A DNA stretch of 64,000 nucleotides from Treponema sp. Lineage in GTDB: Bacteria; Spirochaetota; Spirochaetia; Treponematales; Treponemataceae. Location: NCBI GenBank assembly GCA_014804005.1, contig JAAVAP010000013.1:262302-326301 (forward strand), read 5' to 3'. The translations under genes were made by a program, and so were the position numbers. Under the pieces are notes generated by a model. That model had not been told where the DNA came from. It did no database searches and saw only the letters and a program-made list of their open reading frames with translations. Shown piece after piece: positions 1,893-62,216 of this stretch (the stretch's first letter is position 1; each line of letters starts with the position of its first letter).

Positions 1893-2060
1893 TTTTTATA
1901 GGAGTTATGAAAAAAGTTGCCTGAAATAGCGTCAACTTTTTTCATGTCAAGTTTCCGTTGGAAACTTGCATATTCAATGCACATTCTCATTTCATTGCGA
2001 ATGTGCGTAAAAAGCCAATCGCGATTTTGAAAAATCGTTCATGGCTTTTTTAGGAGTTAT
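1893..2060 (+). repeat. Four-hairpin intergenic element with duplicated Shine-Dalgarno (copy 1)
   Basis: The spacer between pgk and tpiA is bounded by a near-direct repeat (TTTTTATAGGAGTTAT at 1893-1908 and CTTTTTTAGGAGTTAT at 2045-2060); the right copy is the tpiA ribosome-binding site. Between them lie four consecutive hairpins. The first is a perfect 13-bp stem, ATGAAAAAAGTTG with its complement (1907-1919/1933-1945). The second is CAAGTTTCC-GTT-GGAAACTTG (1948-1968). The third is GCACATTC/GAATGTGC (1979-1986/1999-2006). The fourth is AAAAAGCCA/TGGCTTTTT (2009-2017/2042-2050), enclosing a smaller stem. The same layout recurs at 7321-7488. Function unknown; mRNA processing, stabilisation or translational control are possible. 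Confidence 0.75.
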
Positions 2061-7320: not shown

Positions 7321-7488
7321 TATAGGAGTGTTAAACAGGAACTCCGCACAAATGGCGCAGCGTTCCTGTTTTCAAAGTTTGCGTTGCAAACTTCGATATT
7401 TACAGCGCGTTTTCATTTCATTGCAAATGCGCAGTAAAAAAACAGTCGCGATTTTCAAAAATCGCTCTTGACTTTTTATAGGAGTGTT
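7321..7488 (+). repeat. Four-hairpin intergenic element with duplicated Shine-Dalgarno (copy 2)
   Basis: The spacer before atpK begins and ends with the same 12-mer, TATAGGAGTGTT (7321-7332 and 7477-7488); the right copy is the atpK ribosome-binding site. In between, the order of hairpins matches copy 1 at 1893-2060: an AACAGGAAC/GTTCCTGTT stem, AAGTTTGCGTTGCAAACTT, a GCGCGTTTTCATTTCATTGC stem closed by AATGCGC, then GCGATTTTCAAAAATCGC nested in a weaker AGTC/GACT stem. Stem sequences differ, but the TTTTCATTTCATTGC loop and the GCGATTTT hairpin are shared. Both copies sit directly before an abundantly needed gene. Confidence 0.75.
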
Positions 7489-7491
7489 CTT

Positions 7492-7821
7492 ATGAACAAG
7501 AAAATTTTAGTTTTGGCGGCGGCGTTGTTCTGCGTCGCGATGGCAGGAATCTTCGCACAGTCTTCTTCCGAAGGCGCGGAAGAGCAGGCGATCGAGCAGA
7601 CGGACAACTCGAAGGCTTTCAAGTACATCGCGGCTTGTCTCGCGGTGGGCTTTTCGTGCATTGCGGGCGGAATGGCGGTCGGAAAGATCGGCGCGGCGGC
7701 GATGGGCGCGATGAGCGAAAATTCGGAACTTTCTGGAAAGGCTTTGCCGTTCGTCGGACTTGCCGAAGGTATCTGTCTTTGGGGATTCCTTGTGGCTTTG
7801 CTCATAATAATTCTCGGATAG
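7492..7821 (+). CDS. V/A-type ATP synthase subunit K (two-helix rotor protein), operon 1
   Basis: The 109-residue proteolipid forms the ion-carrying rotor ring. It has an N-terminal signal-like helix (MNKKILVLAAALFCVAMAGI) with a likely cleavage after FAQ, as in some A-type K subunits, then one helical hairpin. The second helix of the hairpin carries the ion-binding glutamate E92 in VGLAEGICLWGF. The position occupied by a Na+-ligand glutamine in sodium-type rings is V63 (AVGKIGAA), which argues for H+ coupling; this is inference from alignment by eye. ATG 7492 follows the duplicated TATAGGAGTGTT site. Confidence 0.9.
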   Translation: MNKKILVLAAALFCVAMAGIFAQSSSEGAEEQAIEQTDNSKAFKYIAACLAVGFSCIAGGMAVGKIGAAAMGAMSENSELSGKALPFVGLAEGICLWGFLVALLIIILG

Positions 7822-38100: not shown

Positions 38101-38157
38101 TGGGAAAATAACGAAATTTTTGAAAAAATTCTTGCGGGCGCAAGGTTTAACGGCCGC

Positions 38158-38241
38158 GCATTGCTAGGTTAGACCATCTAACCTAGTTAGGTTGAATGAT
38201 AGTGCATTGCTAGGTTAGACTGTCCAACCTAGCTAGGTTGA
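38158..38241. repeat. Two 38-bp direct repeats with internal inverted repeats
   Basis: Two near-identical copies (38158-38195 and 38204-38241, period 46) begin GCATTGCTAGGTTAGAC and end with TAGGTTGA. Each contains CTAGGTTAGA facing TAACCTAG (copy 1) or CTAGGTTAGACTG facing CAACCTAG (copy 2). A second word, TTGAGCGGYTGAA, is repeated just downstream at about 38238-38273. It lies between two regulator genes and resembles iterons or protein-binding sites. Confidence 0.65.
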
Positions 38242-38323
38242 GCGGTTGAAGCTAGTGGATTTGAGCGGCTGAAACTGGGGGCGGGCGATGAGGGGAATGT
38301 GCGGGTTGTGTAGGGCGGAATTA

Positions 38324-51604: not shown

Positions 51605-52684
51605 ATGGAAGAAGAAAGGCGCGACTACACGCGCGGCATCTACAACGTGCTCATCGTGCTCTGTTGCGTCCTTTTCGTGGCCATCTTGAAAATCACGCAG
51701 GCATTTTCGATTCCGCTCGTGATTGCGATTTTCCTCTCGCTCGTCGTGCTTCCGCTTTTGCAGAAGATTCACAAAAAGTTTCGCGTACCGTGGTTCTTTG
51801 GAATCGCGTGCACGCTGATTTTTTTCGCGGCGTTGATTGCGGGAATGGCGAGCCTTTTGCAAAGCAGCGTCGGCGCGATAATTTCTGCGTATCCGAAATA
51901 CGAAGCCCGCTTCCTTTCGATTTACAGGCAGCTTTCCGCCACCTTCAATTTGAGCTATGACGAAGGAAAGACCTTGATCGAGAACATTTTCGCGCAGCTG
52001 AGGATAATGCAATACTTGCAGCGTTTCGCGCTGTCGCTTTCGGGCTCGGCGATCGGATTCGTCAAAAACATTTTCATAGTCTTTTTGCTCTACACTTTTT
52101 TGCTCATCGAGGCGAACGACTTCCAGACGAAAATCTCGCTCGCGTTCGAAGGAAAGATGCGCCATCGCGTGAAGTCGATAATCGTGAACGTCATCGTGGA
52201 CACGACGCGCTTTTTTTCGATAAAATTCATCGTCTCGCTCGCGACGGGAATCTTGGTCTATTTGGGCGCGCTTGCAATCGGACTGGACTTCGCCGCGATT
52301 TGGGCGTTCATCGCGTTCCTTTTGAATTTCATCCCGACTTTCGGAAGCACGATTTCATTCGTGCTCACGACGTTCTTCGCGTTCGTGCAGTTTTTCCCGA
52401 AATGGCCGCCCGTCATCGCCGTAGCGATTCTGATGCTCGCCGTCAATTTCATTTTGGGCAACATCGTCGAGCCGAGAATCGAGGGCGAGAATTTGGGAAT
52501 ATCGCCGTTTTTCATTTTGGTGAGCCTTTCAATCTGGGGATGGATTTGGGGATTCGTAGGAATGATTCTGGCAGTGCCCTTCATGGTCTTCATAAAAATC
52601 CTCTGCGAGAACATCCCTTCGATGAATCCCGTGGCGATAATTTTGGGCAACAAAAAAGGCGCGCGCAAGCGAAGAAGAGTTTAA
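51605..52684 (+). CDS. AI-2E family (PerM/TqsA-type) membrane transporter
   Basis: The 359-residue protein has about seven to eight membrane helices in the pattern of the family: two N-terminal hairpins (VLIVLCCVLFVAILKITQAF; SIPLVIAIFLSLVVLPLL), a central soluble loop of about 90 residues, then five C-terminal helices. Family-typical segments are FLLNFIPTFGSTIS and LVSLSIWGWIWGFVGMILAV, the latter followed by PFMVFIKI. Members transport diverse substrates, including Na+/H+ exchange and autoinducer export, so the substrate is unknown. Its stop codon lies at the edge of a 41-bp palindromic repeat array. Confidence 0.9.
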   Translation: MEEERRDYTRGIYNVLIVLCCVLFVAILKITQAFSIPLVIAIFLSLVVLPLLQKIHKKFRVPWFFGIACTLIFFAALIAGMASLLQSSVGAIISAYPKYEARFLSIYRQLSATFNLSYDEGKTLIENIFAQLRIMQYLQRFALSLSGSAIGFVKNIFIVFLLYTFLLIEANDFQTKISLAFEGKMRHRVKSIIVNVIVDTTRFFSIKFIVSLATGILVYLGALAIGLDFAAIWAFIAFLLNFIPTFGSTISFVLTTFFAFVQFFPKWPPVIAVAILMLAVNFILGNIVEPRIEGENLGISPFFILVSLSIWGWIWGFVGMILAVPFMVFIKILCENIPSMNPVAIILGNKKGARKRRRV

Positions 52685-52890
52685 AACTCGCCGACGCGAG
52701 TTCCGAGCTTTAAACAAAATGTTTAAATTCGCCGACGCGAGTTGTGGGCTTTAAATATTTTGTTTAAACTCGCCGACACGAGTAGTGGACGTTAAACAAA
52801 ATATTTAAACCTGCCGACGCAAACTTTGGCATTTAAACAAAATGTTTAAAGCCATTTCCGCCAGATTGGACTTTAAATATTTTGTTTAAA
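52680..52890. repeat. 41-bp tandem array of palindromes after the AI-2E-type gene
   Basis: Five copies of a 19-bp AT palindrome occur at 52709, 52750, 52791, 52832 and 52872 (period 41, 41, 41, 40). Two forms occur: TTTAAACAAAATGTTTAAA (copies 1 and 4, with A for G in copy 3) and its near reverse complement TTTAAATATTTTGTTTAAA (copies 2 and 5). A half copy, TTTAAA, overlaps the stop codon of the preceding gene. The 22-bp spacers start as CTCGCCGACGCGAG, itself a small hairpin, and decay to the right. Neighbouring copies can pair into long stems. It is not a CRISPR, since spacers are related to each other. Confidence 0.8.
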
Positions 52891-61980: not shown

Positions 61981-62059
61981 GCAGGAACGCTTCCTGCTTG
62001 GCAGGCGTTCGCGCCCGTGCGCCCCGCATCCGCTTCAAATCCTTTGAGGTTTCGGCTAA

Positions 62060-62185
62060 AAAGACTGTATCTTTTCGTCCGAAAGATACAGTCTTTTGGT
62101 CTGAAAGATACAGTCTTTTAGGGGTAAAACATACAGTGTTTCGGACCGAAAGATACAGTCTTTTGGACGGAAAGATAGTATCTTT
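62060..62185. repeat. 22-bp repeat array (GAAAGATACAGTCTTTT)
   Basis: This holds most of the gene-free stretch 61981-62325. Copies lie at 62081, 62103, 62125 (degenerate), 62148 and 62170 (degenerate), a period of 22-23 bp. An inverted copy, AAAAGACTGTATCTTTT, is at 62060-62076. Each unit is itself an imperfect palindrome (AAAGA/TCTTT). Both strands are open across the array, giving repeated KDTVF-like or RYSLL-like peptides, which is a by-product of the repeat. Confidence 0.75.
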
Positions 62186-62216
62186 TAAACGAAGCGCGCG
62201 AGCCAAAGCAAAACGC

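Follow-up and report, generated by a model that had tools for sequence, protein, structure and literature searches.

The spacer between pgk and tpiA in the window, that is, the whole 64,000-nucleotide stretch of Treponema sp. DNA that was analyzed, raises the question of why a ribosome-binding site should be present twice with a block of tight hairpins between its copies, and why a similar arrangement should precede atpK in the same window. Each of the two spacers, 1899-2060 before tpiA and 7321-7488 before atpK, harbors one four-hairpin element. As the earlier note had observed, the ends of the tpiA spacer are alike, with AGGAGTTAT located at both 1900-1908 and 2052-2060 and the hairpin block lying between them; the order of the four hairpins is identical in the two spacers, and the loop TCATTTCATTGC is common to both (1987-1998 in the tpiA copy, 7413-7424 in the atpK copy). 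The middle parts of the two copies align at 77% over 65 nucleotides, and the direct repeat around the atpK copy is the longer of the two (TATAGGAGTGTT at 7321-7332 and 7477-7488). The components, numbered P1 to P4 for the hairpins and flanked by Shine-Dalgarno (SD) regions, are as follows, with the supporting evidence in parentheses.

1899-1908, plus strand: left SD-region copy TAGGAGTTAT of the tpiA element (sequence; pair-specific SD identity across copies)
1907-1945, plus strand: hairpin P1 (ATGAAAAAAGTTG...CAACTTTTTTCAT), which holds the nonconserved MKKVA frame at 1907-1924 (sequence, fold, covariation in alignment A3)
1948-1968, plus strand: hairpin P2, CAAGTTTCC-GTT-GGAAACTTG, the hairpin that is best conserved across the family (fold, alignment, covariation)
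1979-2006, plus strand: hairpin P3 with loop TCATTTCATTGC (fold, alignment, covariation)
2009-2051, plus strand: hairpin P4 (AAAAAGCC...GGCTTTTT), abutting the right SD (fold, alignment, covariation)
2051-2060, plus strand: right SD-region copy TAGGAGTTAT, the predicted working ribosome-binding site of tpiA, whose ATG is at 2062 (sequence; the empty L043 site with a single AAGGAGTTAT)
7321-7332, plus strand: left SD-region copy TATAGGAGTGTT of the atpK element (sequence; the empty ortholog L330 with AAGGAGTGTTC once)
7333-7371, plus strand: hairpin P1 of the atpK copy (sequence, fold)
7374-7394, plus strand: hairpin P2 of the atpK copy, AAGTTTGC-GTT-GCAAACTT (sequence, fold)
7405-7432, plus strand: hairpin P3 of the atpK copy (sequence, fold)
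7436-7479, plus strand: hairpin P4 of the atpK copy (sequence, alignment)
7477-7488, plus strand: right SD-region copy TATAGGAGTGTT, the predicted ribosome-binding site of atpK, whose ATG is at 7492 (sequence)

Chance hairpins can be dismissed as the source of this arrangement, since the predicted folds of the tpiA spacer (-59.7 kcal/mol, z -7.7) and the atpK spacer (-53.1 kcal/mol, z -4.9) lie far below those of shuffled sequences, none of 200 shuffles equaling either value, and since a genome-wide family exists. No strict intrinsic terminator was found in the tpiA spacer, and the atpK spacer gave a few terminator-like matches. The tiny MKKVA frame noticed previously is present exactly as described in the tpiA copy (and in L019); it is not conserved, the frame being longer in some other copies, the ATG missing from others, and the atpK copy lacking the frame altogether, and a conserved leader peptide was accordingly rejected. 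The window also contains arrays of other kinds, namely, a 41-base unit (TTTAAACTCGCCGACGCGAGTT...) in at least four tandem copies at 52681-52885, units of approximately 22 bases with alternating inverted ACTGTATCTTT/AAGATACAGT motifs at 62050-62187, and palindromic 23-base units around AGGTTAGAC/CTAACCTAG at 38143-38257.

The two spacers are members of a large family. BLAST with the tpiA copy as the query returned approximately 20 further copies in its own genome at E values below 1e-5, and the covariance-model search that the earlier note had proposed, performed with a model of the full-length element built from 27 copies, identified 73 matches there (E<=0.01). The consensus structure derived with RNAalifold from the element alignment retained 38 pairs, 29 of which display changes on both sides. 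Among 59 genomes (the source genome and its relatives), matches were present in 18, all belonging to the same genus, at 0 to approximately 50 copies per genome (the highest tabulated count being 48), while 76 of 146 genomes of the genus matched in a wider sample, with per-genome copies ranging from none to at least 20. The outcome that had been named as contrary to a shared element, that is, an absence of further copies together with only unrelated random hairpins in orthologous spacers, was thus not encountered. Between unrelated loci, the identity of copies rises to 99.3% in one genome (G018) and 98.7% in another (G016), and recent spreading in some species is therefore indicated. Head-to-tail tandem units occur in three genomes (G030, G006, and G104), and a second element type exists, which often forms tandem arrays (G030 and G006). 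Two copies, L030 and L031, carry extra hairpins, nearly alike in both, in the P1 and P3 loops, and are followed by genes for an unidentified secreted protein and a transketolase.

Orthologous sites proved to be predominantly empty. Nearly all of the 80 tpiA orthologs that were fetched and read lack the element and possess one SD, including the syntenic loci L043 and L048, in which tpiA likewise lies next to pgk; besides the window, occupied sites were seen only in L055, which ends at a contig end, and L091. In L051, the tpiA spacer holds a different set of hairpins between two GGAG motifs, for which the covariance model gives no match. For atpK, the element is missing from every inspected orthologous spacer other than that of the window, among them the spacer of the closest ortholog (G016, L324); the spacer of G007 (L330) contains AAGGAGTGTTC once, this being the repeat that is present twice in the window.

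To compare the left and right SDs across the family, these were aligned on GGAG, and true pairs were set against shuffled pairs. Left-right identity within one copy exceeds that of the shuffles only at positions -1, +4, and +6 (z values of 4.4, 6.2, and 3.2, respectively), such that the two SDs agree pair by pair only around RGGAGNNN. A direct-repeat score of at least 10 was obtained in 31% versus 7.6%, and many copies have only a weak direct repeat. Because the agreement is pair specific, the left SD is taken to be a copy of the target, with a duplication of approximately 6 to 8 nucleotides, and the comparison points to a short target-site duplication around RGGAGNNN. The longer direct repeats of some copies (L035 and L281) are attributable to older P4 remnants located just upstream. 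One copy, L116 (G000:C19:23789-23896, minus strand), lacks the 5' half of P1 and is flanked by a long duplication which spans the SD, the start codon, and the signal-peptide start of the downstream gene.

As to position relative to genes, 59 of the 62 main-type copies from the relatives end on the right at an SD that is followed by a start codon on their own strand; the mirror arrangement on the opposite strand was found in none of the 62, and random positions gave 128 of 2,620 (4.9%). In the source genome, where both types are mixed, the corresponding values are 30 of 49 and, for the mirror, 2 of 49; the second type shows no such association with SDs (2 of 20). Selection against insertions within genes contributes to this bias, alongside any choice of target. 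The downstream genes, as judged by inspecting their translations, are unrelated to one another (tpiA, pgk, atpK, adk, lepA, rpsR, rpoD, lexA, galE, dapA, purC, fabZ, and others) and also include flagellar and transport genes. At dapA, the element occupies the same place in three species (G008, G019, and G034; L188, L189, and L192), each of which has a single detected copy, and the genes upstream of that copy differ; this looks like retention, and the element could have a function there.

Taken together, these data led us to propose that the family is probably a non-autonomous, palindromic DNA repeat that is mobile, or has at least been dispersing recently, and that inserts at SDs. The repeat, of approximately 150 bp and with the four consecutive hairpins P1 to P4, would enter the Shine-Dalgarno sequence of a gene in one orientation and would duplicate a short stretch, about RGGAGNNN, in so doing; an orphan SD would stay before P1, and, since the SD is duplicated on insertion, the gene would keep a working SD directly after P4; the insertion would be nearly neutral for it. 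Later insertions could hit the right-hand SD of a copy already in place, thereby generating tandem units or P4 remnants. The hairpins are most likely kept as DNA or single-stranded DNA structures for a mobilizing enzyme rather than as regulatory RNA. The earlier note had offered two readings, intergenic elements that move or recombine and form a family, or a conserved RNA device: the mobile option gains from the dispersed copies, their patchy occurrence between species, orthologous sites that are empty, the near-identity of some copies at unrelated loci, and a duplication of the SD that is specific to each pair, while the RNA device is weakened by the diversity of target genes and by stems in which G-U does not exceed A-C.

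The nature of the enzyme is central to the first alternative, namely, that the family is REP-like and owes its movement to a Y1 transposase of the IS200/IS605 type (RAYT), which would cut and rejoin single strands beside GGAG, with the element itself supplying the right GGAG. Palindromic ends, a fixed orientation, tandem units, and GGAG at both ends would all suit such a system; in the first 24 genomes of the genus, moreover, Y1 matches were confined to four, all rich in the element, and one Y1 gene of G010 (L300:1250-2148, minus strand, 246 amino acids) has an element in its own 5' untranslated region (UTR), directly before the start codon. This link faded in the 146-genome sample, in which RAYT-size Y1 genes were present in 6 of 32 element-rich genomes and 9 of 114 others, a weak association, and in which 21 of the 32 element-rich genomes, including the one- or two-contig assemblies G067, G072, G131, G155, and G168, had no Y1 match. 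Of the seven Y1 loci that were retrieved within the genus, just one carries a clear element copy, on one side, and no GTAG-headed REP pair surrounds the Y1 genes examined. The duplication, furthermore, extends to +4 and +6 beyond GGAG, which such chemistry does not give. We consider this alternative unlikely.

The second alternative, a cis-regulatory leader RNA whose hairpins, within the mRNA, control how well the downstream gene is translated or how stable its message is, and whose copies are kept as regulators, bears on how the family is classified in Rfam. At the gathering threshold, the window yielded only tRNAs and no match to the element. With a relaxed threshold, the tpiA copy gave two matches, both of which fall under the curated cutoffs.

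1939-2055, plus strand: Rfam TD-1 (RF03155), corresponding to P2-P3-P4-SD (49.9 bits, E 1.2e-7, gathering score 64.5)
1902-2001, minus strand: Rfam TD-2 (RF03162), corresponding to P1-P2-P3 in reverse complement (40.7 bits, E 3.5e-5, gathering score 48.7)

The tpiA copy thus reaches neither gathering score, while two other copies of the same genome pass the TD-1 cutoff (68.7 and 64.8 bits) and one passes that of TD-2 (49.1 bits). Both families belong to clan CL00124, and the window copies align along the full length of both models (TD-1 positions 1 to 120), reproducing the TD-1 layout of P2-P3-P4 followed by an SD and start codon. The top TD-1 scores, of up to 136 bits, come from complete genomes that belong to other genera of the same family, chiefly G169, G186, G199, and G203. 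All 18 distinct classical TD-1 copies that are readable in full include P1, are flanked on either side by an SD or an SD-like sequence, and thus resemble the window unit in having, in order, a left SD, P1, P2, P3, P4, a right SD, and a start codon. The Rfam models differ from this unit in that each covers a part of it only, on opposite strands, with TD-1 typed as Cis-reg and TD-2 as sRNA, and in that neither treats the left SD as one half of a duplication. On the basis of these alignments, TD-1 and TD-2 appear to turn out to be overlapping pieces of one repeat, read on opposite strands. In two complete genomes (G264 and G274; L375 and L376), TD-1 units are arranged head-to-tail with periods of approximately 190 and 165 bases. 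The TD-1 and TD-2 motifs were reportedly described by Weinberg et al. in 2017; a literature search on both found no paper, the original motif description lying outside its reach. The family is already known by name, and the full unit with its SD duplication, which may have been noticed before, is absent from the Rfam models.

Were the stems kept as one-strand RNA, G-U would be expected to exceed A-C. Counted in pairs that are at least 70% Watson-Crick, the G-U:A-C ratio was 26:25, 54:46, and 38:41 in alignments A3 (aligned by sequence), A4, and A5, respectively, and the stems thus display no strand bias. These counts exclude a pair at the base of P3 that fitted badly and that alone is rich in U-G cells; when it is included, the raw counts lean toward G-U (80:46 in A4 and 80:42 in A5); a tRNA comparison gave 23:0, a weak control because ARAGORN draws no A-C pairs. 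The parity argues for palindromes at the DNA level and is compatible with an RNA effect at single genes. A leader RNA would account for the nearly invariable location in the sense-strand 5' UTR ending at the SD, the strong structure with covariation, the Cis-reg label of TD-1, and the site before dapA kept in three species. It fits poorly, however, with downstream genes that share neither a kind nor a common pathway, with the lack of the element before the same genes in most relatives, with stems devoid of a G-U excess, with an SD duplicated on the upstream side, and with a TD-2 model that reads the opposite strand of the same DNA, and it is accordingly judged improbable.

Copying through RNA, in which a transcript would be reverse-transcribed into the target in the manner of a bacterial SINE-like element, would explain the fixed orientation, the copies cut at the 5' end with an intact right end (L002 and L032), and the 5'-cut L116 with its long duplication, but is very unlikely given the absence of a G-U bias, the usually short duplication, and the lack of any link to reverse transcriptases, the complete, element-rich genomes G067, G072, G131, G155, and G168 being absent among the reverse-transcriptase matches listed.

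No Y1 transposase and no reverse transcriptase was found in the source genome, which is approximately 92% complete, and on the best reading, the host genome need not encode an IS200/605-type (Y1) transposase or a reverse transcriptase. The Y1 search of the 146 genomes of the genus yielded no transposase tied to the element family; the mobilizing enzyme may have been lost, may act from another replicon, or may belong to another family. It is conceivable, and we advance this only tentatively, that the repeat represents a new class of mobile element which homes to SDs and duplicates them, such that the gene stays translatable, and whose mobilizing enzyme belongs neither to the Y1 transposases nor to the reverse transcriptases.

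If the proposed dispersing DNA repeat is correct, two Rfam RNA families would represent overlapping parts of a single DNA repeat, and the Cis-reg and sRNA labels that they bear would mislead the annotation of treponeme genomes, apparently including that of Treponema denticola. An SD that serves as the landing site and is rebuilt would allow a mobile element to precede essential genes without breaking them. Dozens of copies may also alter how long leaders are, how stable mRNAs are, and how operons are built in these genomes, and the repeat offers a concrete target for finding the mobilizing enzyme.

Among known repeat systems, REP/BIME elements with their RAYTs (PMC2817692) are similar in being species-specific, palindromic extragenic repeats with compensatory changes. 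The treponeme element differs in that it measures approximately 150 nucleotides, comprises four hairpins, and resides in 5' UTRs; its consensus has no GTAG head, no RAYT was seen between two inverted REPs at the Y1 loci examined, and element-rich treponeme genomes have no dependable RAYT. A further parallel is provided by the MITE-like BOX, RUP, and SPRITE repeats of the pneumococcus (PMC3049150). Unlike these, the treponeme element has four successive hairpins in place of one terminal inverted-repeat stem (by eye, the main type has only a short, ATAAAAAGT-like inverted repeat), inserts at SDs in one orientation, and has no identified parent IS or autonomous partner. It is nevertheless comparable to them in being tightly folded and shorter than 200 bp, in its many intergenic copies, which are abundant in some species and few or absent in relatives, and, for BOX and RUP, in the duplication of its target; the combination expected of a MITE, i.e., dispersed copies, a target-site duplication, and empty orthologous sites, is found in the treponeme family.
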